From a virus, in IMG/VR virus record IMGVR_UViG_3300013131_000046, positions 1-61,701 of that record: 61,701 nucleotides of DNA. One strand, given 5' to 3'. The position numbers were made by a program, and so were the translations under genes. Numbering within the stretch: position 1 is the stretch's first letter; the number at the start of each line of letters is the position of its first letter. Shown piece by piece: positions 10,188 through 59,843 of the stretch. The notes below the pieces were generated by a model. The model was not told the origin of the DNA. It saw only the letters and a list, made by a program, of their open reading frames with translations, and searched no databases.

Positions 10188-10216
10188 TATATAGTAAACA
10201 ACAGAAAGGTGCCATC

Positions 10217-10580: not shown

Positions 10581-10581
10581 G

Positions 10582-10608: not shown

Positions 10609-10632
10609 CTGGTCTCAGGAAAGGAATCCGAC

Positions 10633-12822: not shown

Positions 12823-13953
12823 ATGTCTGACGCCCAAACTTTCATCGACTCGATCCGCTCGGCTAAAGGCGGTAAAGAAACCTACTCTCGTAAAGAACTT
12901 CTTGACTTCGGAAAGGCAAATGGCTTTCGTCCGAAAACCGTCTGGGAAGCGATCAAGTCTGTTCCTGCTGTTAAGCGCGGAGTGGTCGACTTCTCTGCGA
13001 AAGTTATTCCGTTGAACACTACTGCCACCGCCCAGCCGACGATCGTCCTCTCGGAAGAAGGCACCTACATCCCCAAGCGCGTGAAAACCTACGTCAAGTG
13101 GGGTCACTTCAAAGACATCTCGACCATCATTGAGTCCCGCATGTTCTACCCTGTTTATCTTACCGGCTTGTCGGGTAACGGCAAGACTATGATGGTCGAA
13201 CAGGCTTGCGCTGAAGCTGGTCGCGAATACATCCGGGTTCAGATCACTCCTGAGACTGACGAAGATGACTTGATCGGTGGCTTCCGCCTTGTGAATGGTG
13301 AGACCATCTTCTCGAAAGGTCCGGTCATCAAAGCGATGGAAGCTGGCGCAATGCTGCTGGTCGACGAGATCGACCGTGGTTCGAACAAGCTGATGGCTCT
13401 TCAGGGTGTTCTCGAAGGTAAGCCTGTTCTCATCAAGAAGACTGGTGAGCTTGTGACTCCGGCTGCTGGCTTCAACATCATCGCCACCTCGAACACCAAA
13501 GGTAAAGGTTCCGAGGATGGCCGCTTCATCGCCGCTACGATCATCGACGAAGCTTTCCTTGAGCGCTTCACCATCACGATGGAGCAACCCTACCCGACGG
13601 CTCAGGTCGAGAAGAAGATCGTCGTCAAGCACATGGAGCTCTTTGGCCAAGTCGACGAAGACTTTGCTGAGAACCTGACGAAATGGTCGGCTGCCATTCG
13701 CAAGACCTTTGATGAAGGTGGCATTGACGAGATCATCTCCACTCGTCGACTGTGCCACATCGCTCAGACCTTCGCGATCTTCAAGGATCGTAAGAAGTCG
13801 ATCGACCTCTGCGTCTCTCGCTTCGATGAAGATACTCGTGCAGCCTTTGTCGACCTCTACACTAAGATCGATGCTCTTGCATCGGCTCCGAGCGGTAAGT
13901 CGCACATTACGACGAACCCCGATGACGACTACCGCAACGAATCTCCTTTCTGA
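12823..13953 (+). CDS. CobS/MoxR-like AAA+ ATPase
   Basis: 376 residues from ATG 12823, chosen because GGAG lies six bases upstream; an ATG at 12811 has no such site. Walker A GLSGNGKT near residue 116-123, Walker B AMLLVDEIDRGS near 177-188, sensor-type IIATSNTKGKG, and an arginine-finger region FLERFTI. The N-terminal 40 residues form a small helical segment. Matches the CobS-like ATPases of T4-like cyanophages and bacterial MoxR proteins. It presumably works with the VWA protein encoded just upstream, though separately promoted. Confidence 0.88.
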   Translation: MSDAQTFIDSIRSAKGGKETYSRKELLDFGKANGFRPKTVWEAIKSVPAVKRGVVDFSAKVIPLNTTATAQPTIVLSEEGTYIPKRVKTYVKWGHFKDISTIIESRMFYPVYLTGLSGNGKTMMVEQACAEAGREYIRVQITPETDEDDLIGGFRLVNGETIFSKGPVIKAMEAGAMLLVDEIDRGSNKLMALQGVLEGKPVLIKKTGELVTPAAGFNIIATSNTKGKGSEDGRFIAATIIDEAFLERFTITMEQPYPTAQVEKKIVVKHMELFGQVDEDFAENLTKWSAAIRKTFDEGGIDEIISTRRLCHIAQTFAIFKDRKKSIDLCVSRFDEDTRAAFVDLYTKIDALASAPSGKSHITTNPDDDYRNESPF

Positions 13954-13958
13954 AGCAA

Positions 13959-14306
13959 ATGATGATTAAGTATCTTGGAGTGGCAGCTGCTTTGGCTGCC
14001 ACTTATGGAATCGAAGGAGCGATTGAAGTAACTGCCTTCTTTCTTGCTTTACTTGCTTCAATGTTCTATTTTGTAGCGGTTCGCTTGTTTACCGGTTTGT
14101 CTCAAGCTGCCCTTTCAACTGACTTTGACGTCTTGCATATGTTGATGGTGTACATGATTTATATCACTATGGCAACTCTCGTATACATGAGCCCATACAG
14201 CTATATTGCATTTGTTGCTCTACCATGGCTTATCATCCAAGGCTCTGCGAATATTCTTTCTCTTCTGGTCAAATTCGACATCATTGGAATTGAAGACAAG
14301 GAATGA
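13959..14306 (+). CDS. Predicted multi-span membrane protein
   Basis: 115 residues with about four hydrophobic segments (residues 5-22, 24-45, 65-85, 88-107 approximately) and a short charged C-terminus GIEDKE. Two adjacent ATGs (13959, 13962). It follows the AAA gene by five bases, so it is likely co-transcribed. It could be a holin-like or other inner-membrane protein; an exported hydrolase gene lies 98 bases downstream, which makes a lysis role worth testing but unproven. Confidence 0.68.
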   Translation: MMIKYLGVAAALAATYGIEGAIEVTAFFLALLASMFYFVAVRLFTGLSQAALSTDFDVLHMLMVYMIYITMATLVYMSPYSYIAFVALPWLIIQGSANILSLLVKFDIIGIEDKE

Positions 14307-14320
14307 GCAGAATTCTGCTC
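14305..14320. other. Perfect 16-bp palindrome after membrane-protein gene
   Basis: GAGCAGAATTCTGCTC starting at the stop codon of the preceding gene. No T run follows, so it may be an operator-like dyad or a weak RNA hairpin. Confidence 0.5.
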
Positions 14321-14403
14321 GTTGTAGAATTAAATGTTGATGTAGTGACTTCTATGGAATAAATATTTTTACCAAAGTGGAAACAACAGAGGTAGTATTT
14401 CCC

Positions 14404-14931
14404 GTGAAATTTCTAGTAAACGTAAGCTCAGCCATCACGGCTGCAGCCATAATCTCTCTTTTGCCGCATGCAGTAGCATCGTCGTATAACCCAGACTTCA
14501 ACACTTCGGCGATTGAAGATTATAATGAACAACGTGAGTGCTTAGCTCTCAACATCTACCACGAAGCAAAAGGTGAATCCGAGCTTGGTCAAAGAGCAGT
14601 TGCATATGTAACTCTTAATAGAGCTGCAGACGATCGCTATCCAGACGATATCTGTGGGGTTGTTAAGCAAGCTCGTCTTGGCAAAGATGGTCAGCCTAAG
14701 CGCAATCAGTGTCAGTTCTCTTGGTATTGTGACGGTAAATCAGACGAAATTCAAAATCAAGAATCGTACGAACAAGCTTTACAGGTTGCCACTGTAGTTA
14801 TAAATACGTATGGTGCTTCATTCGACCCTACGATGGGTGCAACTATGTACCACGCCGACTCTGTAAAACCGAAGTGGCGCAAATCGTTTGAAGAGACTAC
14901 TCAAATCGAAAATCACATCTTTTATCGCTAA
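14404..14931 (+). CDS. Exported cell-wall hydrolase (SleB/Hydrolase_2 type)
   Basis: 175 residues from GTG 14404, preferred over GTG 14377 because it gives a compact Sec-like signal (MKFLVNVSSAITAAAIISLL, then AVASS) and follows AGAGG. The mature part has the SleB-like signature LALNIYHEAKGES (catalytic Glu), GQRAVAYVTLNR, then QCQFSWYCDG and a final M-Y-H-A-D region. Such enzymes cut peptidoglycan and serve as phage endolysins; export signals are known in some phage lysins. An AATAAATA late-like element lies about 45 bases upstream. Confidence 0.85.
   Translation: MKFLVNVSSAITAAAIISLLPHAVASSYNPDFNTSAIEDYNEQRECLALNIYHEAKGESELGQRAVAYVTLNRAADDRYPDDICGVVKQARLGKDGQPKRNQCQFSWYCDGKSDEIQNQESYEQALQVATVVINTYGASFDPTMGATMYHADSVKPKWRKSFEETTQIENHIFYR
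14799..14806 (+). promoter_or_regulatory. Late promoter match TATAAATA inside hydrolase gene
   Basis: Exact octamer, 136 bases upstream of the gene at 14942. It could be chance within coding sequence. Confidence 0.35.
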
Positions 14932-14941
14932 GGAGTAAGGC

Positions 14942-15208
14942 ATGACTCGAGTCGTACAAAGAGTACAGATCACCAGTGATAGTGCAACTATCCGAACATC
15001 TGCCGGGGCCTTCAAAGTTCTTACTGCACATGAACGAGATGGTATTCCAACTGTATGGTACGAAACGCTCGAAAAACCTGTAGTGCCAATTGATGTAACC
15101 TTTACTGTAGTACCAACCGGAGGAGCTGTTCCAGAACACTCAATTTACGTTGGTACTGCCTTTAAGGAAGGAAGAGCTTCACATATCTATCAACACCCAA
15201 GTATCTGA
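14942..15208 (+). CDS. Small conserved phage protein, DUF7352-like
   Basis: 88 residues, start MTRVVQRVQITSDSATI. The layout of a beta-rich N-terminus, an IPTVWYETLEKP block, then FTVVPTGG and IYVGTAFKEGRASHIYQ matches a short protein family of many tailed phages (DUF7352), function unknown. AAGGAGTAAGGC lies before the ATG. Ten bases after the hydrolase. Confidence 0.7.
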   Translation: MTRVVQRVQITSDSATIRTSAGAFKVLTAHERDGIPTVWYETLEKPVVPIDVTFTVVPTGGAVPEHSIYVGTAFKEGRASHIYQHPSI

Positions 15209-15216
15209 GGTGATGA

Positions 15217-15306
15217 ATGGAGAAACAGGAAGAACAAAAAGAAGCTCCATCCACGCCTAGACACGAAGAATACCTTGAGAAGCAACGACGATATGAAAAG
15301 GGCTAA
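15217..15306 (+). CDS. Very short charged protein
   Basis: 29 residues (MEKQEEQKEAPSTPRHEEY to the end), almost all charged or polar. TGAGGTGATGA provides a ribosome-binding site and the start is eight bases after the previous stop. Support is limited to position and the ribosome-binding site. Confidence 0.45.
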   Translation: MEKQEEQKEAPSTPRHEEYLEKQRRYEKG

Positions 15307-15315
15307 ACTATTTAG

Positions 15316-15345
15316 TTGACATTCGCGAATAATATGATATAAATA
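15316..15345 (+). promoter_or_regulatory. Promoter of the permuted tmRNA gene (sigma70-like plus late octamer)
   Basis: TTGACA 15316-15321, 16 bp, TATAAA 15338-15343. The -10 region is also an exact TATAAATA (15338-15345), so the gene may be read in both early and late phases. Confidence 0.75.
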
Positions 15346-46686: not shown

Positions 46687-46901
46687 TGCAAGAGTTTATT
46701 CAAACCGAAGAAAAAGATTATTCGCGTGATGTTACTACGAGAGCTCTAATAAATACAAATAGAAGAGCTCTCGCAGAGCACAAAAAGAAAAAAGAAGATG
46801 CATTACGCTTAGATAAGCTTGAGCGTAACGTACAAGACATAATGTCTATGATGTTAGACATCCGCCAAGCGGTACGAGAATTAGGAGCAAGTAAGCAGTA
46901 A
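46686..46901 (+). CDS. Small coiled-coil protein between structural genes
   Basis: 71 residues; from about residue 28 a continuous charged helix (EHKKKKEDALRLDKLERN) with heptad pattern. It shares one base with the gene before and one with the fibre gene after. Probably a fibre or wedge accessory; no family recognised. Confidence 0.75.
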   Translation: MQEFIQTEEKDYSRDVTTRALINTNRRALAEHKKKKEDALRLDKLERNVQDIMSMMLDIRQAVRELGASKQ

Positions 46902-49753
46902 TGGCAAAGGCACACATCTATTTAGCTGCAGGTGCGAACGTTGAAGCAACAGATACTTTTGCTTCATGGGTCGATACTACCAACTCTCTCGTATACGATA
47001 TGGGAACTGTAGTACTCACTTCGGTAACGCAACCACAGCCAAACGTAACCGTTGGTGGATACACTACTGGTAACGCTCATCTTGAAGGTATCTTCTCAGC
47101 GAATACAGTTGTAGTATCGAATAGACTCAGAGGCGGATCGGTAAGTACTGGTGGTGACCTAACAATAGTTTCAAATACTATCTTTTCTGAATCACCCCTT
47201 GTTCGCATTTCGGCAAACACCGATAACTTTACGATTAACTCGAATAATACAACATTTACGAGTAACGTAGCAATTGATTCGACAAAGACGGTCTTAATTT
47301 CTGCAGCAAATACGACCATCAACGCAGGTCAATTGTTTGTACGTACGAATTCGGAATTCACTGGCACTCGCGTTGATATTGACGGTACAACCTTTGATGT
47401 TACTTCAAATACAATAGTAACTGCCGCCTCGCTAAATGCTAACGTCGACGTAATTACTCTTGGCTTCAACGCGTCAGATTCTCTTGTAGTAAATAGCTTA
47501 GCTGATTTTAATTCAAACACAAATATCGACGGTATTCTCACTGTAACTGCAAATGCTGCATTTACCGGATCTAACACAACAGTAACAGCTCTTGAGGCTA
47601 CAGATGAAGTTAGATTAAAGGGCACAAGTGCAAGAACTATTAAGACACAAAGTACAAACTCTACTCTATACTCGCTCAATTTAAGTCTCGCGAATACTTC
47701 AGCTACAGTGACACCTCTTATAGTATCTTCGACAGGCATACTTCCGGATACTACAACTACATACAATATTGGTTCAAGTTCTGCCACTTGGAATAAAGCT
47801 TGGGTAAAAGATCTCGATGTTGCAAACAGTGTTAACATTCAGGTCGATGCTGAAGTTGATCGTGACATGATTATACGCCGTGACTTGTATGTGTATGGAA
47901 CATCTTATTTCTCATCGAACGTTACACTTGTAGTAAGTTCGTCTGATGTACACGATTTTAACGTGACAAATACGATGTCATTTGTTGGAAGTGCCGGATT
48001 TGATACTGACGTGTTACCTACTGCAAACGTTTCTTATTCTCTTGGATCGAATCTCGCTCGCTGGAATAGGGTATTTGCAAATAATGTAACGGCCAATACT
48101 GTTGACGTTATAACAGTTACTACAAGTAATGTTGGCTCATCATTGATTCCTACTGCAAACGTTTCTTATTCTGTAGGCTCTGACTTGATGCGCTGGAATA
48201 GGGTATTTGCAAATAATGTAACGTCCAATACGGTTACTGCAACGACCGTAACCGCAGCACTGGTAGGTAATGCATCTACCGCTACTACATTACAAACTGC
48301 TCGTACGATCAATGGTGTATCATTTAACGGTTCTGCAAATATTACCGTAACAGCGAATACGAATAACACTCTTACTCGTGGTACTTATCTTACCGGCTCC
48401 AACTTTGATGGTTCAGCAGCCACTACTTGGGCTGTTGATGCTACTACAACTTCTACTGCCTCGAAGGTCGTAGCTCGCGACGCCTCAGGTAACTTTGCTG
48501 CAAATACTATCACTGCAGCTCTGGTTGGAAATGCTTCAACGGCTACAACTCTTGCTACAGCCCGCGCGATAAACGGTGTTAACTTTGATGGTTCTGCAGC
48601 AATCACAATTACGGCAAATACACCAAACACTCTTACTCGTGGTACATATCTCACTGGATCAAACTTCAACGGTGGAGCTGCAACTACATGGGCGGTTGAT
48701 GCTACCACAACTTCTACAGCTGGAAAAGTTGTAGCCCGTGATGCTTCTGGTAACTTTGCTGCAAACACAATCACTGCAGATCTTGTCGGTAACGCCACGA
48801 CAGCAACGACTCTTGCTACTGCAAGAACGATTAACGGTGTAAGTTTCAACGGTTCGGCTAATATAACAGTCACCGCAAATACGAACCAAGCACATACCGC
48901 TGGAGCTTATCTTACCGGATCAAACTTCAACGGTTCAGCAGCAGTAACATGGGATGTGGATGCAACTAACCTTGCAACTGCTGGAAAAGTTGTAGCCCGT
49001 GATGCTTCTGGTAACTTCGCTGCGAATACGATTACGGCGGTATCATTTGCTGGTATTGGTTCTGCTATTACTAATATTAATGGCACAAATATCACATCCG
49101 GAAATGTGGATGATGCACGAATTCCTACTACAATCGTTCGAACATCTAGAAGTGTCACAGCAGGAGATGGTTTAGCTGGAGGTGGTGATCTATCAGCTAA
49201 TAGAACTTTTACAGTAGATGAAACAGTAGTACGCACGTCAGGTACACAAATAATCTCTGGTACGAAGACATTCCCAACACTTCGCTATAGTGGATCCGCA
49301 TTGCCAGATACGACTAACGTTTATAACTTAGGTTCGTCTACACTTAGATTTGCAACGGTGTTTGCTACCACATTTAACGGTACTGCAACAACTGCTCAGT
49401 ACGCTGACCTTGCAGAAAACTATCTTGCAGATCAAGACTATGAAGTCGGTACAGTAATTGCTGTCGGCGGTTCAGCAGAAGTAACCGCGGCGGATGTTAA
49501 TAATGCACATGCAGTGCTAGGTGTGGTTTCGGAAAAGCCGGCTTATCTCATGAACAGTGATCTAGAAGGTGGTACAGCAATCGCTCTGAAGGGTCGCGTT
49601 CCGGTTAAAGTAATCGGTGGCTGCAAGAAGGGCGACAGACTAGCTCCTTCAACTACTCCGGGTTATGCGCATGTGGACAACGGCAGAAGTGCCTGGTCAT
49701 TCGCAATTGCTCTTGAAGATGGATCGCTAATGGTAGAGGCTGTTATCCTATAA
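46901..49753 (+). CDS. Repeat-rich tail fibre protein
   Basis: 950 residues. N-terminal segment MAKAHIYLAAGANVE, then long Thr/Asn/Val-rich beta stretches, repeat blocks (see 48247-49039), a V-T-A-G-D-G-L-A-G-G-G-D-L-S element, and a C-terminal domain LAENYLADQDYEVGTVIAVGG ... ALKGRVPVKVIGG common at fibre ends in marine phages. Most likely a host-recognition fibre. Starts one base inside the previous stop and is followed eight bases later by the radical SAM cassette. Confidence 0.82.
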   Translation: MAKAHIYLAAGANVEATDTFASWVDTTNSLVYDMGTVVLTSVTQPQPNVTVGGYTTGNAHLEGIFSANTVVVSNRLRGGSVSTGGDLTIVSNTIFSESPLVRISANTDNFTINSNNTTFTSNVAIDSTKTVLISAANTTINAGQLFVRTNSEFTGTRVDIDGTTFDVTSNTIVTAASLNANVDVITLGFNASDSLVVNSLADFNSNTNIDGILTVTANAAFTGSNTTVTALEATDEVRLKGTSARTIKTQSTNSTLYSLNLSLANTSATVTPLIVSSTGILPDTTTTYNIGSSSATWNKAWVKDLDVANSVNIQVDAEVDRDMIIRRDLYVYGTSYFSSNVTLVVSSSDVHDFNVTNTMSFVGSAGFDTDVLPTANVSYSLGSNLARWNRVFANNVTANTVDVITVTTSNVGSSLIPTANVSYSVGSDLMRWNRVFANNVTSNTVTATTVTAALVGNASTATTLQTARTINGVSFNGSANITVTANTNNTLTRGTYLTGSNFDGSAATTWAVDATTTSTASKVVARDASGNFAANTITAALVGNASTATTLATARAINGVNFDGSAAITITANTPNTLTRGTYLTGSNFNGGAATTWAVDATTTSTAGKVVARDASGNFAANTITADLVGNATTATTLATARTINGVSFNGSANITVTANTNQAHTAGAYLTGSNFNGSAAVTWDVDATNLATAGKVVARDASGNFAANTITAVSFAGIGSAITNINGTNITSGNVDDARIPTTIVRTSRSVTAGDGLAGGGDLSANRTFTVDETVVRTSGTQIISGTKTFPTLRYSGSALPDTTNVYNLGSSTLRFATVFATTFNGTATTAQYADLAENYLADQDYEVGTVIAVGGSAEVTAADVNNAHAVLGVVSEKPAYLMNSDLEGGTAIALKGRVPVKVIGGCKKGDRLAPSTTPGYAHVDNGRSAWSFAIALEDGSLMVEAVIL
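48247..49039 (+). repeat. Tandem coding repeats in tail fibre gene
   Basis: Three units of roughly 87-90 codons, each with G-T-Y-L-T-G-S-N-F, T-T-W-A-V-D-A, K-V-V-A-R-D-A-S-G-N-F-A-A-N-T-I-T and T-A-R-x-I-N-G-V. Unit starts are near 48367, 48628 and 48890. Confidence 0.8.
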
Positions 49754-49761: not shown

Positions 49762-51789
49762 ATGAATTTTGTTTATGTAAATTACACCATACGCGATAAT
49801 GTATATGACTACGCATGGCTTTCGTTTAAATCATATGTAGAAGATAATTATAAGGGTAGTGCTAAGTGGAATTGGCACTACCCAATTTCTTCTTCAAGAG
49901 CGGATGACGTTCATAAACTTGTCGATGATATCTTGTCAAAAGATCCTACACTTGTGGGATTCTCCGTCTATGTATGGAATGTAGGATTGTCTCGAGAAGT
50001 AGCTCGGCTAATTAAAGAAATTAGACCTTACGTTCATATTGCATTCGGTGGTCCTTATTGTGAATATAAGGAAGACCCAGATTATTTTAAGAAATACCCG
50101 TACATAGATTTTACGTGCCAAACTGATGGGTATGGAGAGCCTTTCATAAACGAATTGCTCTATCAAATAGAGACTGATAAAGATTGGATGAAAGTCCCAT
50201 TTATGGTGATGGCGAAGGACGATAGTTATATCACTTCGTCTGTTGTATTTAACAAGCGTTTATTTACTTGGCCAAAGAAAATCTTTGAACGTAATAAATA
50301 CTATATCAAAGATGTGATCGATAATCGCATTCCAGGTGTAACGCTTCAGGCTATCTACGAAACTCATCGCGGATGCCCGTATGGATGCACGTTCTGCGAG
50401 TGGAGCGGTGGAATCAACTCAAAGGTTTCATTTCGTCCAACTGAAGATATTATTGAAGACTTAACATGGCTTGCAGAAAATGGCGCTCTAGAAGACTTAC
50501 ACATGGTCGAAGCAAACCTCGGTCAGCTTGATCGCGATGTAGAAATCATGGAGTATGTTTGCGAGCTCAAAGCAAAATATGGCGCGCCAAAAGAAATAGT
50601 GTTTGCTGGTTTAAGCAAATCAAAGAAATCAAACGTATACAAGATCGATAGACTTATGGCTCAACATGGTCTATCATCTGGTTTCAAGATCTCGATGCAA
50701 GACATGGATCCACAAGTCCTGAAAAACATTGATCGAATTGATGAGCCGTGGGAAAAGCAATTTAAAGCTTATAATGAACTTCGTGAAGAGTTTGGCATTA
50801 AGATTCGAGCAGAATTAATTCGAGGCCTTCCTGGTACCACACTGCAGAACTACTACTTTGCAGCTGGTGAAATGGCAAAGCTAAATGTGTTCTGGGAAAA
50901 ATACACATGGCATCTTCTTCCAACATCACCCGCTTCACATCCTGATTACATCAAAAAGTTTAAGCTCGAGACGATTGAATCTTTAACTGAATCTACAAAA
51001 GACGCCGTTATTCGTGAAGATGTACTGATGAGTGGGTCTTTGATCAAACAAAGAGGTCTTATCGAAGCACCAGAGTATGTACAGCCATCGAAGATTGTTG
51101 TAGCTACTATGTCATACACTCGAGAAGACTATGTTGAGATGCTTGTGTCTGATGGTATTATCTTCACGATGGAGACTGAAGGCTACCTTCGCAGAATTAC
51201 TCAGTATTTAGACTCTATCGGTATACCACACTCTACTTTTTATCAGAGATTCTATAAGACATTCATCAGCATTGACTATTTAGAATCTATCCAATTTTCT
51301 GTGCTTAATAGCATTATACTGCAGGCTCAGGAGAAAGTAAAGGAAAAAAGTGCGATCAACTTCGAATACTATCGACTAGATGGTCTACCATGGAAGTTGT
51401 ACGCAAAGATGCCAGCTCTGATCAACATCATGATCAACCTCAATCGCCATAAATTTTACCAAGCAGTCAAGGCTTGGATCATAAACGAGTTTGGAGAAGA
51501 TGAGAAGCTCGATGATCTAGTTAACTGGAGCATCAATTCTGTTAAGTGGATTGATTATAATCCCGATAATCCTACACAATTCATAAGTGAATATGATTGG
51601 ATGTCGGAAAATTTGATCAAAGGTACATATGTTAATACTCCATTGGATAAAACATACACAGACCTTCATCACAACATTGATTGGCATAAATACGACATGA
51701 ATGAGAGAGTAAACAGATATTTCATTAAACTATGTTCTGTGTCTGGATCAAACAAAATGTTTAAGACAATAGAGGTAAATCCATGCTAA
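49762..51789 (+). CDS. Cobalamin-binding-type radical SAM protein
   Basis: 675 residues. N-terminal Rossmann-type region (LVGFSVYVWN, VHIAFGGPYCEY) as in B12-binding radical SAM enzymes, then the 4Fe-4S motif C205-x3-C209-x2-C212 in HRGCPYGCTFCEWSGG, and a TIM-barrel core through ELIRGLPGTTLQNYY. A long C-terminal helical extension (about 400-675) is unassigned. Such enzymes methylate or rearrange unreactive carbons. First gene of a five-member radical SAM cassette following the fibre gene by eight bases. Confidence 0.86.
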   Translation: MNFVYVNYTIRDNVYDYAWLSFKSYVEDNYKGSAKWNWHYPISSSRADDVHKLVDDILSKDPTLVGFSVYVWNVGLSREVARLIKEIRPYVHIAFGGPYCEYKEDPDYFKKYPYIDFTCQTDGYGEPFINELLYQIETDKDWMKVPFMVMAKDDSYITSSVVFNKRLFTWPKKIFERNKYYIKDVIDNRIPGVTLQAIYETHRGCPYGCTFCEWSGGINSKVSFRPTEDIIEDLTWLAENGALEDLHMVEANLGQLDRDVEIMEYVCELKAKYGAPKEIVFAGLSKSKKSNVYKIDRLMAQHGLSSGFKISMQDMDPQVLKNIDRIDEPWEKQFKAYNELREEFGIKIRAELIRGLPGTTLQNYYFAAGEMAKLNVFWEKYTWHLLPTSPASHPDYIKKFKLETIESLTESTKDAVIREDVLMSGSLIKQRGLIEAPEYVQPSKIVVATMSYTREDYVEMLVSDGIIFTMETEGYLRRITQYLDSIGIPHSTFYQRFYKTFISIDYLESIQFSVLNSIILQAQEKVKEKSAINFEYYRLDGLPWKLYAKMPALINIMINLNRHKFYQAVKAWIINEFGEDEKLDDLVNWSINSVKWIDYNPDNPTQFISEYDWMSENLIKGTYVNTPLDKTYTDLHHNIDWHKYDMNERVNRYFIKLCSVSGSNKMFKTIEVNPC

Positions 51790-52358
51790 AAAGAATTGTA
51801 TTAGCAATGAATATTGAAATTGACGACGTCAACAACAAAATACGTAATAGCGTAAATCCTTGGTATGTCGATAATTTTATTCAATATTGCATGGAAGATG
51901 CGTATTTTCTTGATATTATCACAAAGAATTTGATACATCACAAATATAGTAAAGATATCGTCGATGCATTTAAATCCGGAAACTATAAGTACGTCTTCGA
52001 ATCTTTTAAAGACCAAGAATCATACATAAAGTTTTTTGAAGAAGCTTTTCATGACATGAATCGATTCATATTTCTAAAGTATGAAGCGACCACATATTTA
52101 GATAAAGAATTAAATGGACTCGTTGTTTTGCCTATTGCGTATTCGGGCAATCGACCTCAGGTACCTCATACCTATATTGGATGGGTCACACCGCACAGTA
52201 TCGATCATCTTGTAACACATGAAAATCTAAGCGAAGAAGCTGCAAATTTATTTCAAGAATCTTATTCGAACTTTTTAAGAAGTCATAAAGATAAATTTGA
52301 TGTGTTTTTTGATGGAAATTCAGCCGAAGAAATAATAGAATATATGAGGTCACTATGA
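51783..52358 (+). CDS. Unknown protein of the radical SAM cassette (A)
   Basis: 191 residues from ATG 51783 (GAGG eight bases upstream), overlapping the previous gene by seven bases and the next by four. Helical N-terminal half (YVDNFIQYCMEDAYFLDI) and a region Y-I-G-W-V-T-P-H-S-I-D-H-L-V-T-H-E. No family recognised; tight packing suggests it works with the radical SAM genes, perhaps as a partner or tailoring protein. Confidence 0.75.
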   Translation: MLKRIVLAMNIEIDDVNNKIRNSVNPWYVDNFIQYCMEDAYFLDIITKNLIHHKYSKDIVDAFKSGNYKYVFESFKDQESYIKFFEEAFHDMNRFIFLKYEATTYLDKELNGLVVLPIAYSGNRPQVPHTYIGWVTPHSIDHLVTHENLSEEAANLFQESYSNFLRSHKDKFDVFFDGNSAEEIIEYMRSL

Positions 52359-53362
52359 TTAATTGGGCCTTCATTTGGGCGTCAAGACGACCTCCTATTT
52401 GGGAAAATTGTACTGATGTAATGAATCTTGCCATCGGTGATAAGTGGTCATTTAATGGACTATACATGCCAGTTAATTCTGGAAGATCTTCACTTGCCAA
52501 TATAGTAAAAGATGAACGTATTCATACACTGAAAGCGCCGGTACTTGAGCAGTTTGAGTCTGAATCATTTAAATACGTGATAGAAACGAATAATTCGGGA
52601 ATGAATACTGAAGTAGGCGAGTCGAGGGGCCAACTCATTCTCAAAGAATATTTGACTCCAAGCGTTAGCTTAGATCCAGACAACAGTAGAGTTATTAATC
52701 TTGATGAAGTGTATGAGTATTTAGAAAAGTATTCGTGGGTGGCACTGGGAACGCCACTCAGCAATATCGCTATGAACAAAAAAACCCTGATGGCTAAATC
52801 TTATTACTATGCTCGAGACGATGATTTTAATGTGATTAACATAAGTGGCGATAACAATCCAATCGACGGATTAGCTTCTATCGCCACAGTAACGTACTGT
52901 GTTTTTAAAAGAACGAAAAACAAAGAACTAGTTATCTGTGTGCTCAACCCGCATCTGGTATCAATGCCCAGTATTGATTCGAACGTTTATGACAATTCTC
53001 ATCATGTGTTTAGTATGGATGCCTATGACGCTACTGTAGAAGAATATTTTTTAGTGCCAAGAATTGAAGGTTCTGGAGCGTATATGGTGAATAGAAATAC
53101 AATCTTTACTACGTCCCAGTTTACTATACATGAGTACGAGGGCGGCACATACTTCGGTAAGTACGGAAGCGCTATAAAATTTGACAGAGAAATCAAAACC
53201 AATTTAACTGTAAAAGTGAAGGACGGAAAAATACATGTAGATCCGACTCGACACTTTGGGTATATTACCTTAGAATACAATATAGATTCAATTATAAATA
53301 GGTATGATCGTACTGCTACTGCGGGCAAATATAAGATAGAATTTATCGTAGCTAAAGGATAA
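52355..53362 (+). CDS. Unknown protein of the radical SAM cassette (B)
   Basis: 335 residues, start MINWAFIWASRRPPIWENCTD. Strand-rich, with repeated aromatic/Asn residues (EYEGGTYFGKYGSAIKF, HFGYITLEYNID). There is no known catalytic motif. It may be a virion protein or a carrier for modification. A late promoter (53293-53300) lies near its 3' end for the following genes. Confidence 0.72.
   Translation: MINWAFIWASRRPPIWENCTDVMNLAIGDKWSFNGLYMPVNSGRSSLANIVKDERIHTLKAPVLEQFESESFKYVIETNNSGMNTEVGESRGQLILKEYLTPSVSLDPDNSRVINLDEVYEYLEKYSWVALGTPLSNIAMNKKTLMAKSYYYARDDDFNVINISGDNNPIDGLASIATVTYCVFKRTKNKELVICVLNPHLVSMPSIDSNVYDNSHHVFSMDAYDATVEEYFLVPRIEGSGAYMVNRNTIFTTSQFTIHEYEGGTYFGKYGSAIKFDREIKTNLTVKVKDGKIHVDPTRHFGYITLEYNIDSIINRYDRTATAGKYKIEFIVAKG
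53293..53300 (+). promoter_or_regulatory. Late promoter within cassette
   Basis: TATAAATA 68 bases before the small HxH protein gene at 53368. Confidence 0.6.
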
Positions 53363-53367
53363 CGAAC

Positions 53368-53559
53368 ATGGTTGCAGATAACACAAGCACATTCACCGCA
53401 GCTGGATCCACTACAGCGAAGACGACTGGGCAGACCATTGACGCAGCATCTTTTCGACAGATGGTTGATGTGCTTGATGCGCTAATTCAGCACAGCCATA
53501 CGTTTAGTGATGACTATACTTCGAACTGTCAGTGTAACTGTTCTCGAGGCAGCATCTAA
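53368..53559 (+). CDS. Small HxH-motif protein with Cys-rich tail
   Basis: 63 residues: Thr/Ala-rich head, then a helix motif T-I-D-A-A-S-F-R-Q-M-V-D-V-L-D-A-L and H-S-H-T-F-S-D-D-Y, then a tail N-C-Q-C-N-C-S-R-G-S-I. The helix-HxHxxxD unit occurs twice in the protein at 57374. H-x-H units bind metals in phage fibres; the three Cys tail next to radical SAM genes recalls RiPP precursor peptides. Immediately followed by a radical SAM start (TAAATG). Confidence 0.72.
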   Translation: MVADNTSTFTAAGSTTAKTTGQTIDAASFRQMVDVLDALIQHSHTFSDDYTSNCQCNCSRGSI

Positions 53560-54120
53560 ATGTCAGATAATTATGTGAATGTGAAAAGAGTTTTAAGCGA
53601 AGCACAAAAGAACAGATTAAAAAATCATACTCCTTCCGTTATTGACCAAGAAGGAACTCTTCATACCACCGTTGAAACTATTAACATTTCCAGTAAAGGT
53701 CAAAAATCTAATAAGCTCATCACAGTTCTTCCCAAGTCCGAAGAAGCAGCAGTTCCATTTTCTGAAGCAGAGGTTCTTTTCAAGGATCTTGTGCAAGTAA
53801 ATGCAATGCTTACGAATGCATGCAATCTTGCATGCTCTTATTGCTATGAGCAACATAATAAAGACTTTGGGCGGTTTACAAAAGAATCACTAAAGCAAGT
53901 TTATGATTGGATGAATTCCCGTAATAACGGCCAGAAGAAAGTGTTTCAATTCTTTGGTGGTGAGCCACTGATTCATAAACCTTTGATCAAAGAATTTATC
54001 GAAACATACGACGAAGAACTCAGTTCAAATTATAGTGATTACCGTGGCACATATATCTCGATGTGTACAAACGGACTTTTGCTGAATGATGAAATTACAG
54101 AATTCTATTGTAGTAAGTAA
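53560..54120 (+). CDS. Radical SAM protein, N-terminal part before in-frame TAA
   Basis: 186 codons. Contains the 4Fe-4S motif C88-x3-C92-x2-C95 in NACNLACSYCYEQ and F-F-G-G-E-P-L-I-H, and stops at codon 187 (TAA 54118-54120) just after ITEFYCSK, in the middle of the TIM barrel. The same frame continues Y-T-Q-M-M-I-S-L-D-T, the expected next strand, so the stop interrupts one gene of 546 sense codons. Either a nonsense mutation, readthrough, or an assembly error. Confidence 0.8.
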   Translation: MSDNYVNVKRVLSEAQKNRLKNHTPSVIDQEGTLHTTVETINISSKGQKSNKLITVLPKSEEAAVPFSEAEVLFKDLVQVNAMLTNACNLACSYCYEQHNKDFGRFTKESLKQVYDWMNSRNNGQKKVFQFFGGEPLIHKPLIKEFIETYDEELSSNYSDYRGTYISMCTNGLLLNDEITEFYCSK

Positions 54121-54129
54121 TACACTCAG

Positions 54130-55203
54130 ATGATGATTAGTCTTGATACTTTCAATTCGACTATCGATCATCGTGAAATTACTCCAGCTCAAATGAACAA
54201 GCTGAAAGGAGTAATCAAGAAAGCAGTTGATACTGTTGATGATCCTATGCGAGTTGTAATTCGTGCTACACTCTCCGAAGAAACAAGTCGTGACATGGGT
54301 AACTTTATCGACGAGCTGTATTCTCTTGGTGTGCGCAATATGGTTGTGCATCCTCTCGTGCTTGATTCAAAACATGGGTTTATTTCTTGGAAAGAAGAAA
54401 ACTGGCAATCGATGAGATCGAAGATTTTCAATGCTCTTGAAATGTACGATGATCTATACATTAAGTTTTCTGAAGGCGTTGGCCAAAAAGAAGATTCAAA
54501 CTGTATGGTTGGTTCACACATGGTTGCTATTGATGCATCGGGTGACTTTTCAGGGTGTTACTTCTTTACAAATCAGAAATCAAACGGAGCTGACATTGCT
54601 GTACTTGGAAATGTGATTCAAGATAAAGTATATGTAGATCGTTATAAGACTTTTCAGAATGCTTATAATGAAATGTTCCAAACCGAGGAACAGTGCAGAA
54701 CTTGTGATTATCAGAATGCATGTTATCAATGCCCTGCAGGAAATCTTGATACTGGATCAAGAATATTCAGACCGGATGATATGTGCCAAAAGATTGTGAA
54801 GCTATACGTTGATTTTCAAACTGACGTAAGTAAGAAGATCTTTATGCGACATGTAAAGAAGAGAGCCAAGCGCTTAGAAGAACTTGGCCCACAAGTTATG
54901 TCAGCAGAGTTAACGTTCTTTCGAGAAGCGCTTGGCGGAAATGTAATGGGTCAAGATATGTTTGATCATTATATCTCGATCAGAAATGATCTTCAAACGC
55001 CAGAGGAAATCATGTACGAGTGGCTCGGGGCAAAAGATCTGAGAGAACTATACAACATACTAGCAAAAACGTATGGCTATCCAGAATTCACATTCCATCC
55101 TGACTCTCACATAGTGAAGTGTTATTACATACAATGCATATCGACCATCATATTCAAACAGAACTCAATCAACAAGACAAGTCTCGCGACTTTACTGGAA
55201 TAA
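54130..55203 (+). CDS. Radical SAM/SPASM protein, C-terminal part after in-frame TAA
   Basis: Same frame as 53560-54120. Starts M-M-I-S-L-D-T-F (barrel strand 4-5), includes a SPASM-type auxiliary cluster region (SNCMVGSHMVAIDASGDFSGCYFF, then C-R-T-C-D-Y-Q-N-A-C-Y-Q-C-P-A-G) and a helical tail. The ATG at 54130 has no convincing ribosome-binding site, supporting the view that this is the remainder of one gene. Its last 70 bases overlap the next radical SAM gene in another frame. Confidence 0.75.
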   Translation: MMISLDTFNSTIDHREITPAQMNKLKGVIKKAVDTVDDPMRVVIRATLSEETSRDMGNFIDELYSLGVRNMVVHPLVLDSKHGFISWKEENWQSMRSKIFNALEMYDDLYIKFSEGVGQKEDSNCMVGSHMVAIDASGDFSGCYFFTNQKSNGADIAVLGNVIQDKVYVDRYKTFQNAYNEMFQTEEQCRTCDYQNACYQCPAGNLDTGSRIFRPDDMCQKIVKLYVDFQTDVSKKIFMRHVKKRAKRLEELGPQVMSAELTFFREALGGNVMGQDMFDHYISIRNDLQTPEEIMYEWLGAKDLRELYNILAKTYGYPEFTFHPDSHIVKCYYIQCISTIIFKQNSINKTSLATLLE

Positions 55204-56231
55204 AAGCAATTACAATATACCTCGGAGACTTCTGCAACTTCGACTGTGTGTATTGTGATAGAGCCTATATTCGCGATGAGATCGGTTCTCAAAACTTGTT
55301 AAAGCGTGACTTTGACGAGATCGTTAAATTTATGACTCTCGCAAAAGAACACGCAAAAGAATTGAAAGCAATATCTTTTCATGGTGGAGAACCATTTCTC
55401 TACATTAAGAGAATTGACCAGCTCATGGAGTTGCTTCATCCACTTTTTGGTGATAGCGTTGAATATTACATCACTACAAACGGTTCGTTAATTGTAGAGA
55501 ATGAATGGTTCTTTCAAAAGTGGAACCACATACATATTACATTGAGCTATGACTTCAATTATCAAGAAATCAATCGTGAAAAGATCGATCTAAAGGGTCT
55601 AGCCGATGTCTTGTACAGAAACAATTGTTATCTCATGTTTCAATTTGTTTGCCCGCCGGATGGGTTCAACGAACACACTCTTTCAGCCGTAATAAGCGCG
55701 TGTAAAGAAAGTAGATGTGACACGGTAAATTTGATTCCTCTTCGGCATCATCGAGGAAAGCAAAAGTTTAAAGTATTGATTGACGACTTTGACATAAAGT
55801 GGTATAGTATTTACCTAATGCGATTTATTCATTCTCTCTACGTTCAAGGAATCAACCTGAATATCGATGGTAATTACGATAAGATAGATAAGCAATACTT
55901 GAACAATCATGGTAAGTTAATTCTATCACCAGACGGTTATCTATATCCGGAGTTTGATTATCTTGAGTATAAGAGAAAAGAGTTTCGAGTAGGTCGATGG
56001 AGAGGTCAACAGTATCTCGACCGCGTAAAAAGTGAAGAAGACTTTATACTGCCTGGATGCCAAACTTGTGACTTGAGAGATGCTTGCGGGTTAAAGTATT
56101 TGTATCACATGTTTGAAGAAGAACCTAGAGGCAAGTGTGTTGACTTCTACAAAACGATTAGCCTGATGGTTAGACATTTACATAAATTAAAACAGCAACC
56201 AACGTTATTGCATTGGATTGGATATGAGTAG
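55134..56231 (+). CDS. Radical SAM protein with SPASM-like C-terminus
   Basis: 365 residues from ATG 55134. 4Fe-4S motif C34-x3-C38-x2-C41 in GDFCNFDCVYCDRAY, S-F-H-G-G-E-P-F-L-Y, and T-T-N-G-S-L. A C-terminal L-P-G-C-Q-T-C-D-L-R-D-A-C-G (about 305-318) is a short auxiliary-cluster region, later C-V-D-F. Intact. Overlaps genes on both sides. Confidence 0.85.
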   Translation: MHIDHHIQTELNQQDKSRDFTGIKAITIYLGDFCNFDCVYCDRAYIRDEIGSQNLLKRDFDEIVKFMTLAKEHAKELKAISFHGGEPFLYIKRIDQLMELLHPLFGDSVEYYITTNGSLIVENEWFFQKWNHIHITLSYDFNYQEINREKIDLKGLADVLYRNNCYLMFQFVCPPDGFNEHTLSAVISACKESRCDTVNLIPLRHHRGKQKFKVLIDDFDIKWYSIYLMRFIHSLYVQGINLNIDGNYDKIDKQYLNNHGKLILSPDGYLYPEFDYLEYKRKEFRVGRWRGQQYLDRVKSEEDFILPGCQTCDLRDACGLKYLYHMFEEEPRGKCVDFYKTISLMVRHLHKLKQQPTLLHWIGYE

Positions 56232-57363
56232 TTACACCGGTGAAGAATTTAGAAAATTCAAAGATAATAGCGCATACTTCATAACTGAAGATGCATTAGC
56301 ACCTTTAGATCATGATATTACATTTAGTCCCACTAACAAATATTATTGTGGAGCAAATTGTCAGGTCTGCTATATTAAACAAAAGCTAAATCAGCACCTA
56401 CCATATTATGCAAGCGCTGTGCCAGTTAAGATAACAGCTGAAGAAGAAAAGCGTTGGTACGAGATTTTCAGTTACTTCTATGTTATCAGAGTCGTCGACG
56501 ATTTATTGTACCTCAAAGAAAACTATCCGTACGTCTATTCCTGGTATAAAGAACATGCTTCTACGTTCGAATATGGTATGACTGATAATGCTCTCATAAA
56601 GCAACATAAAACTCTCATGGAACTTAACATGAAAGGATTATCTGAAGTTGCGTTGAGTGAAGAGTTTATGAACAAAGTAAACTCAAAGAAAAACTACAAC
56701 AAGATCATTGAGATACTGCAAGATTATATTCACAAATACGATTTGCATAAAGTCAAGGTAATCAAAACCACAGAAACAGAATTACCATATCACGCAAAAG
56801 AGCTCGTTGAATGGATAAACGATAAAGGTATTGTAACGTCTCTTCATAACGATTATAGAAAGAGAAGTGTTAAAGATAACGAATTAGGCAATGCTGATCA
56901 TGATCTACAGGGTCTGTTTGATTATCAAAATAGCCACGTGTTGTGTTATAATGATAGAACATATCAGGTCTACCGTGGATCACTTCACTTATATGGTGAT
57001 CGTTTCTTCTATAGTATTGATGACGCAACAGACATAAATTGGGAACCGTTCCACACTATGGACGGCGACTTTGATCATAGAGCGTTTATGTATGATATGA
57101 TCGACGGAAAGTTTAAATTATATAGCTCTTTCTTTCAAGAGCTACAACCAGCATTAGACGCTACTGCTCAAAAATTTAGAGACTACTATATAAATACAGT
57201 AGATACATTTGTAGTGAATAGAGAATTCAACTTTATACCAAAGATGATGTTAAGCGAAAACTCGAAATACTATCACAAGCTTATAGAGCTAGGATACCGA
57301 AGAACAGAGGTTGGTTTATACTTCCCATCAGGCGATCCGGCTCCTATAATAAGTTTTAAATAA
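56224..57363 (+). CDS. Divergent radical SAM-like protein
   Basis: 379 residues from ATG 56224, overlapping the previous gene by eight bases. A CX3CX2C motif (C42, C46, C49) occurs in KYYCGANCQVCYIKQKL, but the usual G-G-E motif is not visible and the rest is unusual, so the enzyme class is less certain. Segments V-K-V-I-K-T-T-E-T-E-L-P-Y-H and D-K-G-I-V-T-S-L-H fit alternating strands of a partial TIM barrel. Contains a TATAAATA near its 3' end. Confidence 0.72.
   Translation: MSSYTGEEFRKFKDNSAYFITEDALAPLDHDITFSPTNKYYCGANCQVCYIKQKLNQHLPYYASAVPVKITAEEEKRWYEIFSYFYVIRVVDDLLYLKENYPYVYSWYKEHASTFEYGMTDNALIKQHKTLMELNMKGLSEVALSEEFMNKVNSKKNYNKIIEILQDYIHKYDLHKVKVIKTTETELPYHAKELVEWINDKGIVTSLHNDYRKRSVKDNELGNADHDLQGLFDYQNSHVLCYNDRTYQVYRGSLHLYGDRFFYSIDDATDINWEPFHTMDGDFDHRAFMYDMIDGKFKLYSSFFQELQPALDATAQKFRDYYINTVDTFVVNREFNFIPKMMLSENSKYYHKLIELGYRRTEVGLYFPSGDPAPIISFK
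57189..57196 (+). promoter_or_regulatory. Late promoter match before second HxH protein
   Basis: TATAAATA within the previous gene, 178 bases before ATG 57374. Confidence 0.4.
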
Positions 57364-57373
57364 GGATTTAAAC

Positions 57374-57754
57374 ATGCCGGCAGTAGCAGGTACAACATCG
57401 ATAAGCCCAGCTCTATCTCTTCGTACAACTTATACAACACCACTGTTAGCGCAAGTAGCTTCTGGTAATACGGTGCAAGCTGCGCATTACACCATGTTAA
57501 AAGACTTCATTAACGCAGTTGGCGCTCACACTCATACGCTTACAGATTATAGCCAGATTAAAGAATTTGGTAACTTAGCTTCGCCCGGAACTGTTTCTAC
57601 GACTGACACCGTGTCCACGGTGTCAGGTTTTACAAATGTTACTACAACGTTTTCTGCTGGCGGAACTATTACGGCAGATCACTATACTGATATGAGAAAT
57701 AAGGTTGAACTACTTCGATCACACAGTCATGCATGGGATGACCTACTCGCATAA
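57374..57754 (+). CDS. HxH-motif protein with two motif units
   Basis: 126 residues. Two units: N-T-V-Q-A-A-H-Y-T-M-L-K-D-F-I-N-A-V then H-T-H-T-L-T-D-Y (about 32-62), and T-I-T-A-D-H-Y-T-D-M-R-N-K-V-E-L-L then H-S-H-A-W-D-D-L (about 97-124). The protein at 53368 has one such unit. Thr/Ser-rich linkers look like an exposed virion protein. Each gene of this type lies directly before a radical SAM/SPASM gene (here overlapping by one base), which suggests substrate-enzyme pairs. Confidence 0.75.
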   Translation: MPAVAGTTSISPALSLRTTYTTPLLAQVASGNTVQAAHYTMLKDFINAVGAHTHTLTDYSQIKEFGNLASPGTVSTTDTVSTVSGFTNVTTTFSAGGTITADHYTDMRNKVELLRSHSHAWDDLLA

Positions 57755-58743
57755 TGGATTATCAATACTATGAACTGAAAGATGGCACATCTTTCTATTA
57801 TGACTCACATAACAATAAGTTATTTAACACTCTAGGTGATCAACTAAACCTGCCTCCAGAGCGGAATCTTTCGTATTATGAAGCAGAAGAAAAGAATCAT
57901 GGTGTTACAAGTAAAGTAAACAATCCAATTGCTATTCGAATTCTGCTGGGTCATGCATGTAACTATAACTGCACATATTGCATGCAAAAGGATATTGGAA
58001 ATCCGCTCGAAAGACCACAGTCTATTTACACAGAGACGTTTATAACAAACGTCCAGCGTAGTCTCAATCTTGAAAGACTTCATCGAGTAGAACTTTGGGG
58101 AGGTGAACCATTTCTTTATTGGAAAGATATGGTTGCCATTATGTCTTTCTTCGATTCGCCTGATCGTGAATTCTTTATTTCAACAAATGGGTCAGCATTT
58201 GTACAAAAGCACGTTGACTTCTTTCGATCGTTAAAAGCAAGAGTACTCATTAGTCTTTCACACGATGCAGTTGGACAAGAGAAACTGCGTGGAGAAGACA
58301 TACTGAAGAATTCAAAGAAAGTCGACGTTGTCAAGCAGCTAATAGGTCTCCCAAACGTAGGGTTAGGATTCTCGACAGTTGTAAGTAACGAGAATCATGA
58401 CCTCTATGCAATCAATGATTACTTCATGGACTTTTGTAAATCGAATGATGTTGACCAGAAATACATGAAGATCACGTTTATTCCTGCAAAGAATTACGAT
58501 GTACACGATACAGGTGAAGCTTCGTCAAATTATATTCTTCGTGGAGAGAAACTAAAAGATTTTGCTTCACATCTTTTTCAGTTCACTCAAGAGTCTTTGC
58601 TTGACATCGAGCGAAAAAGATTCTTAAAGAATAACGTAGTGTATTCAGAAGAAGGCATTATTGAATACGCAAAGTTTCTGAAAAGAGCCACACCTATCAC
58701 TACAAAGTCTGGATGTGGCGCAGACTCAAACGACATTTTATAA
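57754..58743 (+). CDS. Radical SAM/SPASM protein, part before in-frame TAA
   Basis: 329 codons. 4Fe-4S motif C69-x3-C73-x2-C76 in HACNYNCTYCMQK, L-W-G-G-E-P-F-L-Y-W, and T-N-G-S. TAA at codon 330 (58741-58743) follows SGCGADSNDIL, the start of the SPASM domain. The frame goes on with V-D-I-Q-G-N-V-R-L-C-P-H-T, exactly the expected strand, so this is a second radical SAM gene with a single in-frame stop. Confidence 0.82.
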   Translation: MDYQYYELKDGTSFYYDSHNNKLFNTLGDQLNLPPERNLSYYEAEEKNHGVTSKVNNPIAIRILLGHACNYNCTYCMQKDIGNPLERPQSIYTETFITNVQRSLNLERLHRVELWGGEPFLYWKDMVAIMSFFDSPDREFFISTNGSAFVQKHVDFFRSLKARVLISLSHDAVGQEKLRGEDILKNSKKVDVVKQLIGLPNVGLGFSTVVSNENHDLYAINDYFMDFCKSNDVDQKYMKITFIPAKNYDVHDTGEASSNYILRGEKLKDFASHLFQFTQESLLDIERKRFLKNNVVYSEEGIIEYAKFLKRATPITTKSGCGADSNDIL

Positions 58744-58767
58744 GTTGATATTCAAGGTAATGTTCGC

Positions 58768-59109
58768 TTGTGTCCGCATACAGATGGAAGCTTTATTGCC
58801 GGTCGTCTTGAAGATGTGACAAAGGTAGAAATTAAGGGTATGGACATCCTACGCAAGAAGAATCATTGCATGAAGTGCCCAGTGAAACGCTTGTGCAGAT
58901 CTTCTTGTCCAATTAAGTTTCCTGATCATGTATTTTATTCTAATTGCGCTCTCGAAAAAGTTTGGTGGGGGAATATTCAACTTCACGCGTTTCAATTGCT
59001 TTTTGGGCAACCAGTTGTGATGAAACATGTACCAGAACCAACAGATTATATGCGAAGATATATTAATGGATTAAGGAAAAGAAATGAAGCTCAACAAAGC
59101 GCTAATTGA
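58768..59109 (+). CDS. SPASM domain remainder after in-frame TAA
   Basis: Same frame as 57754-58743; the homologous sequence resumes right after the TAA at 58744. Cys residues C-P-H-T, H-C-M-K-C-P-V-K-R-L-C-R-S-S-C-P-I and N-C-A-L-E are SPASM auxiliary-cluster ligands. There is no start codon with a ribosome-binding site. The whole gene would have 450 sense codons. Confidence 0.75.
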   Translation: MCPHTDGSFIAGRLEDVTKVEIKGMDILRKKNHCMKCPVKRLCRSSCPIKFPDHVFYSNCALEKVWWGNIQLHAFQLLFGQPVVMKHVPEPTDYMRRYINGLRKRNEAQQSAN

Positions 59110-59827
59110 AGAACATTCAAACCTACTCAAAAATCATTCTTTACTTGTGACTAACAATATTCAAAGCAAAGAGGATCTTCGAATCTTTATGGAACATCAC
59201 GTGTTCGCAGTTTGGGACTTCATGTCTCTACTCAAAACTCTACAACATGAAATTGTACCAACTACAAATTTGTGGATTCCAACTCGAGGAACACGATCCG
59301 ATATTTCAAGAATGATAAATGAGATTGTTTTGTGTGAAGAAACAGACATTGCTCCGGGTGGTGGCTCAGTAAGCCATTTTGATCTGTACTTGCAATCAAT
59401 GCTCGAAGTCGGGGCAGACATAAAACCGATCAACGTGTTTCTCCAAAACATTAATGCGAGTAGTATTCCGTATTATCTCGCATCAAAGCCGGCTGAAAAA
59501 TTCATGAGAAATACGTTTGGTGCTATTCGAAGAGGTCCACATTGCGCTGCTGCAGCATTTGCTTACGGACGTGAAACGATTATTCCCGATATGTTTACTC
59601 GTCTTCTTTCTCAACTGAATATTAGTCGGCTCGAAGCGCCAAAGTTTCATTACTATCTACAGCGGCACATTGAAGTAGATGGCGATGAACACGGTCCGAT
59701 GTCAGAGCATCTAGTTGAATATTTTTGTGACGATGATCCAATTAAAGTCCATGAAGCAGAACAAGCTGCGATATCAGCAATTCAAGCTCGTATCGAGTTC
59801 TTCAATGACATAGAATATGCTCTTTAA
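59084..59827 (+). CDS. DUF3050 protein (haem-oxygenase-like fold)
   Basis: 247 residues. Strong family pattern: D-L-R-I-F-M-E-H-H-V-F-A-V-W-D-F-M-S-L-L-K (E37-H38-H39), I-N-E-I-V-L-C-E-E, G-G-S-V-S-H-F-D-L-Y, A-A-F-A-Y-G-R-E and H-I-E-V-D-G-D-E-H-G-P. The His/Glu positions fit haem-oxygenase-like diiron proteins. The reaction is unknown. Overlaps the preceding radical SAM frame by 26 bases; AAGGAAAAGAA precedes the ATG. Confidence 0.85.
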   Translation: MKLNKALIEEHSNLLKNHSLLVTNNIQSKEDLRIFMEHHVFAVWDFMSLLKTLQHEIVPTTNLWIPTRGTRSDISRMINEIVLCEETDIAPGGGSVSHFDLYLQSMLEVGADIKPINVFLQNINASSIPYYLASKPAEKFMRNTFGAIRRGPHCAAAAFAYGRETIIPDMFTRLLSQLNISRLEAPKFHYYLQRHIEVDGDEHGPMSEHLVEYFCDDDPIKVHEAEQAAISAIQARIEFFNDIEYAL

Positions 59828-59835: not shown

Positions 59836-59843
59836 TATAAATA
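59836..59843 (+). promoter_or_regulatory. Late promoter of the adhesin-end operon
   Basis: TATAAATA 26 bases before ATG 59869, with AAGGAGAT between. Confidence 0.8.

Follow-up and report, generated by a model that had tools for sequence, protein, structure and literature searches.

Radical SAM cassettes beside a Cys-tailed fibre-type protein strongly suggest that phages chemically modify their own tail-fibre tips

The IMG/VR virus record IMGVR_UViG_3300013131_000046, whose 61,701 nucleotides are referred to here as the window, contains between positions 49,762 and 59,827 a cassette of radical S-adenosylmethionine (SAM) enzymes and small proteins with HxH motifs. The window phage is a T4-superfamily myovirus whose baseplate wedge protein is closest to those of the Sinorhizobium phages phiM7, N3 and M12 (45% amino acid identity); a search of the whole phiM12 genome returned neither a Radical_SAM nor an HxH1 match. 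Ten genes lie head to tail on the plus strand: B12rSAM (49762..51789), p191 (51783..52358), p335 (52355..53362), HxH1 (53368..53559), SPASM1 (53560..55203), SPASM2 (55134..56231), rSAM3 (56224..57363), HxH2 (57374..57754), SPASM4 (57754..59109) and DUF3050 (59084..59827). A tail-fibre gene on the same strand (46901..49753) adjoins the cassette on its 5′ side, and fibre-assembly genes follow from 59869 on its 3′ side. The gene positions, the single strand and the tight packing are as described in an earlier annotation made from the letters alone (hereafter the sequence-only reading), and the fibre-gene flanks that it proposed are borne out by matches of the 5′ neighbour to PHROGs tail fibre and minor tail protein families. 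Many different phages combine such radical SAM genes with a small fibre-type protein whose Cys-x-Cys-x-Cys tail is strictly conserved, an association that makes a chemical modification of tail-fibre tips by the phages themselves a strong suggestion.

The candidate substrate is HxH1, a protein of 63 amino acids made of one HxH repeat and a C-terminal tail of the form H-x-H-x3-D-x-Y-x3-C-x-C-x-C-(xC)n, with CQCNC as the Cys stretch of the window. The tail, HSHTFSDDYTSNCQCNCSRGSI (53491..53556, plus strand), is the proposed modification site. Across 24 aligned HxH1 sequences the H, H, D, Y, C, C, C and G of the tail are invariant, and pairwise identity is higher in the tail than in the leader (0.67 versus 0.41). 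The number of Cys in the tail varies from 3 to 6. In the HxH1 alignment (A8), three tail Cys are found in the window and in contigs L007, L033, L056 and L020, and four to six elsewhere; these three-Cys contigs all carry a B12 rSAM gene on the plus strand, accompanied by p191 in all but L020. In contig L105 (9941-10564, plus strand) the Cys run of HxH1 is broken by an insertion, CFAGDTLI...IITKN-C, which is apparently of the intein type and was not scored by Pfam. HxH2, of 126 amino acids, has two HxH repeats with invariant His and Asp (alignment A10), and its second repeat matches HxH1 with an hhalign probability of 96% (E=1e-8), so that the two HxH proteins are paralogous, as had been proposed. 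A search of HxH1 against PDB sequences found no match. Homologues of HxH2 carry a Gly-rich domain in L120 and a Hint-type domain in L111, which points to fibre-type virion proteins. From these domain fusions and the fibre operon, HxH1 and HxH2 are predicted to be tail-fibre proteins of the virion.

The sequence-only reading counted five radical SAM frames. Four of them (those starting at 49762, 53560, 55134 and 57754) score above the Pfam Radical_SAM cut-off, whereas the protein at 56224, rSAM3, is a radical SAM enzyme by its CX3CX2C motif only, because it lacks Pfam, profile and PDB support: the radical-SAM models of Pfam did not match it, and profile comparisons with SPASM4 and with radical SAM enzymes of solved structure gave nothing useful. 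Its CX3CX2C is invariant in 36/36 sequences, and it matches phrog_36229. In the alignments the motif is kept in all sequences of every enzyme family, with the exception of one of the 37 SPASM2 sequences. Towards the C terminus, seven auxiliary Cys are invariant in SPASM1 and six are nearly so in SPASM4; SPASM2 has four, which form a single auxiliary-cluster motif, and rSAM3 has none. SPASM1 and SPASM4 both show the set of auxiliary-cluster Cys by which the SPASM subfamily is recognised and count as members of it; SPASM1 exceeds the Pfam SPASM cut-off and SPASM4 scores just under that of TIGR04085 (26.6 versus 27). The NCBIfam model nearest to SPASM1 is PapB (E=2e-35), at 122.8 bits versus a cut-off of 340, so that it is not a PapB equivalog, and its best solved structure is PDB 5wgg (CteB). 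The best matches of SPASM4 include the anSME structures 4k36 and 4k37. Both enzymes are thus closest to maturases of peptides and proteins, not to metabolic enzymes.

The remaining members are accessory or lack an assigned family. B12rSAM is a probable C-methyltransferase: its B12-binding Pfam domain lies just under the cut-off (31.4 versus 32.1 bits), its nearest NCBIfam model is KedN5 (132.5 bits versus a cut-off of 700, which places it outside that subfamily) and its nearest solved structures are TokK and CysS. The assignment of the protein at 59084 to DUF3050 was upheld by Pfam (PF11251, E=8e-78, 261.7 bits versus a cut-off of 22.2); the di-iron ligands E86, H98, E165, H196, D200 and H204 of this haem-oxygenase-like protein are kept in 33-34 of 34 sequences with the published spacing, and 9vwb is a solved relative. 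p191 matched no Pfam, PHROGs or NCBIfam family, and its homologues are conserved in relatives only beside B12 rSAM. p335, which matched no PHROG or Pfam family, is beta-rich (AlphaFold pLDDT 86) and has divergent homologues in nearly all cassettes; in a fold search of the PDB, all matches with E<0.001 had a TM-score (by query) below 0.2.

A SPASM enzyme encoded beside a short peptide with a Cys tail is reminiscent of the gene clusters of ribosomally synthesised and post-translationally modified peptides (RiPPs), and the enzyme families nearest to those of the cassette are RiPP maturases. As in such clusters, a potential precursor stands beside its enzyme, HxH1 being followed by SPASM1 either directly or with p335 between them. 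The cassette could therefore be a true RiPP system: HxH1 would serve as the precursor, and cleavage of its modified Cys core would set free a small bioactive peptide while infection proceeds. Leader cleavage and export would call for further genes, and no protease, transporter or other exporter was recognised in the cassette, where p191 and p335 have no assigned function; moreover, the tail of HxH1 is more conserved than its leader, unlike in most RiPPs, and the cassette sits among fibre genes. A RiPP system is on this evidence quite unlikely. The sequence-only reading had offered a peptide product as the second of two possibilities, next to a modified small protein of the virion or fibre; this second part found weak support and is the less likely one because of the lack of a recognisable protease or exporter.

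The distribution of the cassette was followed with profiles of its members, and neighbourhoods were annotated with local profiles on the fetched stretches of contigs. Searches with the SPASM4 alignment and with DUF3050 reached 43 and 16 viral loci, respectively, and the HxH1 profile reached 46 IMG/VR viral contigs together with two contigs binned with bacterial metagenome-assembled genomes. In the 46 viral contigs the core of the cassette consists of HxH2, HxH1, p335, SPASM1, SPASM2, rSAM3 and SPASM4, and the optional members are DUF3050 (25/46) and B12rSAM (12/46). HxH2 was found in 45 and SPASM1 in 44 of the 46 fetched stretches. The two contigs without SPASM1 are L083, in which SPASM4 and B12rSAM are present, and L078, whose stretch ends 84 bp past HxH1. 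SPASM1 either follows HxH1 immediately or is separated from it by p335-type genes, at a distance of about 1-2 kb, L113 and L105 being arranged differently. The placement of an HxH gene directly upstream of each SPASM gene, pointed out before, applies to the window, whereas most relatives have HxH2 upstream of HxH1 and away from SPASM4. HxH proteins occurring in related phages without radical SAM genes would have spoken against a modification system; the HxH2 alignment being too variable to search with, this check covered HxH1, and its outcome did not count against such a system, because all 45 testable contigs contain at least one radical SAM gene of the cassette. The same gene set is conserved in dozens of divergent phages, and its association is for this reason far beyond chance.

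One of the carriers is an isolated phage, the phiKZ-like jumbo phage RP12 of Ralstonia, which has the cassette (L054/L101) and in which the HxH2 model of the window matches a protein of 125 amino acids, the same length as HxH2 in L054/L101. Carriers of the cassette therefore include, at the least, both T4-like and phiKZ-like phages. A tblastn search of INPHARED with rSAM3, DUF3050 and HxH2 gave no match. In L105, SPASM2 and SPASM1 are fused into a protein of 758 amino acids (13044-15320, minus strand), and no other Radical_SAM gene was found in the 90 kb of this contig, which suggests that the two enzymes work jointly and might suffice as a minimal set. In L007, two extra genes lie between SPASM2 and rSAM3 (9350-10224), one methyltransferase-like and the other without assignment, and in L024 repeated fibre-like open reading frames (ORFs) with the Cys-rich stretch SDCSCCCSCNMNCRHGC follow a cassette fragment (9227-11367).

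Radical SAM genes have been reported in other phages. The jumbo phage FLC6 has radical SAM, Fe-S oxidoreductase and 2OG-Fe(II) oxygenase genes (PMC8066314), and the Campylobacter phages CP220 and CPt10 have 11-12 radical SAM genes, which were proposed to boost host metabolism (PMC2853527). Extended to the present cassette, this published interpretation would make its enzymes auxiliary metabolic genes whose location among fibre genes is incidental. Different phage groups conserve the synteny of the cassette enzymes with HxH1, HxH2 and fibre genes, which argues against such a role, as does the affinity of SPASM1 and SPASM4 to maturases, and a metabolic function appears highly improbable.

Further evidence for a link with fibres came from other phages, in which a comparable Cys-x repeat is part of a larger tail fibre and a single SPASM4-type enzyme is encoded nearby. 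The tail fibre of Achromobacter phage JWF, reached by the SPASM4 search, contains NCNCDCNCNCSC immediately before a Hint domain, with a radical SAM gene two genes after the fibre, and phage 2-1 is alike. Providencia phage PSTNGR1 served as a control: its related Hint domain lacks the Cys repeat, and its genome showed no radical SAM gene. Viral contigs were then scanned blindly for DNA encoding CxCxCxCFxAG, ignoring radical SAM genes. The 70 stretches retrieved comprised 20 Cys-Hint ORFs judged genuine, in 19 records, and 50 chance or off-frame occurrences; 18 of the genuine ORFs were called by an automatic rule, and those of L147 and L149, whose fibres read in the same way (FPAGARV), were added by eye. 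A SPASM4-type enzyme was present in 18 of the 19 genuine records, with best E values of 1e-26 to 1e-53, versus 2 of the 50 chance ones (E ~1e-9). The resulting Fisher p=2e-13 overstates the independence of the records, because JWF is among the 19 and several others are its close relatives. In records whose fetched stretch covers both motif and enzyme, the start of the enzyme gene is mostly about 1.2 kb downstream of the motif, on the same strand. The sequence of the single negative record ends 927 bp past the motif, and its 98%-identical sister has the enzyme about 1.2 kb past it. L042, L044 and L051 show a third arrangement, in which a CxCxCxC run lies beside a Gly-rich stretch and the contig has a lone SPASM4 gene.

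These fibres bear on two of the alternatives. In JWF-like phages the Cys repeat is placed within a large tail fibre, which is a further point against a released peptide. It could also be that the Cys-x-Cys tail binds a metal or an Fe-S cluster as a structural tip and that the radical SAM enzymes have another target, such as HxH2, p335, a fibre or a glycan. Iron binding by HxH motifs is known from the spikes and fibres of phages, and CxCxC tails look like metal-binding sequences; what a metal-binding tail leaves unexplained is that the presence of a SPASM4-type gene can be predicted from Cys-repeat fibres even among phages that otherwise differ, and it is considered unlikely. The first possibility of the sequence-only reading, a small protein of the virion or fibre that is chemically modified, is strongly supported by comparison, through the co-occurrence of HxH1 with radical SAM genes and the 18 of 19 Cys-Hint records. 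The connection with fibres is drawn because the cassette lies among fibre genes, because HxH2 homologues carry Gly-rich or Hint domains and because the fibres of JWF and 2-1 combine a Cys repeat with a neighbouring radical SAM gene.

The window itself presents a complication. The two SPASM-type genes were correctly identified before, but their frames are not uninterrupted: SPASM1 and SPASM4 each end at an in-frame TAA (54118-54120 and 58741-58743, plus strand) and resume beyond it, the latter stop falling between the first and second Cys of the auxiliary cluster. The sequence-only reading mentioned neither these stops nor the Cys tail of HxH1, the feature that matters most here. Both SPASM genes are intact in L005/L006 and L007, which carry the same cassette with an amino acid identity of about 89% and about 76%, respectively, in the two enzymes and have Pro (SPASM1) and Ser (SPASM4) at the stop positions. 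Codons past the stops are under purifying selection; for SPASM4, 28 synonymous changes versus 1 non-synonymous change were counted over 81 codons. This finding indicates that the stops are recent or assembly errors and makes long-standing pseudogenes unlikely. An alternative code for TAA is also unlikely to account for them, because TAA ordinarily terminates neighbouring genes such as HxH1 and rSAM3; the relatives, besides, have Pro and Ser at the two positions. The stops may reflect a real recent loss, an assembly error or readthrough; in the first case, the pathway may be impaired in this phage. In the comparison with relatives the remainder of the region proved intact, only the two SPASM-type genes having stops. 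Damaged cassette genes are not unique to the window, because rSAM3 of L086 (13033-14222) is divided into two overlapping frames. No sister contig with the same SPASM4 stop was found in the collection, which omits the window itself and is therefore uninformative on this point.

The timing of expression was approached through TATAAATA, for which the sequence-only reading had proposed late promoters at 53293 and 59836. This motif occurs 15 times in the window versus 3.4 expected, a count of at least 15 being reached in 0 of 100 shuffles, and the enrichment is consistent with T4-type late promoters; it would fit late expression without proving it. The site at 59836..59843 (plus strand) stands ahead of the next fibre genes as a late promoter-like element, whereas the one at 53293 falls within the gene at 52355-53362. 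A third occurrence lies at 57189.

Taken together, these observations point to a probable role of the cassette, namely the maturation of virion proteins of the tail-fibre type by enzymes that the phage itself encodes. SPASM1 and SPASM2, followed by rSAM3 and SPASM4, would act on the Cys tail of HxH1. The product most likely to result would be thioether cross-links (Cys-S to carbon) of the ranthipeptide or sactipeptide type, possibly with the conserved Asp or Tyr just ahead of the Cys run as partner; this particular chemistry is put forward tentatively, with slightly less than even confidence. The DUF3050 di-iron oxygenase would optionally add an oxidation and, in some phages, the cobalamin radical SAM enzyme would add a C-methylation. 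The matured protein would form a hard, rigid or chemically unusual tip on the fibre, or on an element of the baseplate, where the phage contacts its host. It is somewhat favoured that T4-like, phiKZ-like jumbo and JWF-like phages all cross-link a Cys-x-Cys fibre tip through dedicated radical SAM cassettes, which would amount to a general and so far unrecognised class of post-translational modification of virions. Several points weigh against the maturation model. Its mechanism is deduced from sequence, and the Cys-x-Cys tail could also bind a metal. The records of the blind scan are partly close relatives, from about six lineages, and the chance records come on average from shorter contigs than the genuine ones. 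L043, L045, L047 and L048 have a SPASM4-like gene and no CxCxCxC ORF in the fetched DNA, and both SPASM genes of the window are interrupted. If true, the proposal would give a function to the radical SAM clusters that phage papers call unusual without explaining them, account for the Cys-repeat tips of many tail fibres and provide a source of enzymes acting on Cys-rich tails of fibre-type proteins. It also makes the simple prediction that a single short peptide at the C terminus of a virion protein is covalently changed, which can be checked in existing phage isolates.

The open-licence literature yielded no report of a radical SAM modification of a phage virion protein. The paper on Ralstonia phages RP12 and RP31 names 'radical SAM', 'Fe-S oxidoreductase', 'MoaA' and 'MgoB' genes but does not discuss them further (PMC5468394); the cassette of RP12 is the same as the one described here, and no role, substrate or link to HxH proteins or Cys tails is given. 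In the jumbo phage 332-Vera, eight radical SAM genes in a structural cluster were termed 'highly unusual' (PMC12390700), a likeness known from the description in that paper, which gives no role, substrate or Cys-tail link. Among bacterial systems, the DUF3050 protein is a clear member of the DUF3050/MgoB haem-oxygenase-like di-iron proteins, with all six ligands, and differs from MgoB, which belongs to a secondary-metabolite operon (PMC3298696), in being part of a phage fibre cassette. The core of B12rSAM aligns to the cobalamin-dependent methyltransferases KedN5, TokK and CysS, from which it is set apart by a score below the family cut-off and by its phage fibre context. HxsABCD resembles the cassette in combining a His-x-motif protein with paired radical SAM genes, and HxsB and HxsC are weak matches; in contrast, their scores lie far below the cut-off, the gene set is different and no His-x-Ser repeat was found in HxH1 or HxH2. 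Like anSME, matched by SPASM4, and QhpD (TIGR03906), which is among the matches of SPASM1, the cassette enzymes would modify a protein and not a free peptide, although the substrate would be of a viral structural type and the scores are below the equivalog cut-offs. The ranthipeptide maturases of the PapB/CteB type share with SPASM1 the CX3CX2C motif, seven auxiliary Cys and an adjoining gene for a Cys-rich peptide; unlike them, SPASM1 scores far below the PapB cut-off, its putative substrate is of the fibre type and encoded among virion genes, and several radical SAM enzymes occur together.

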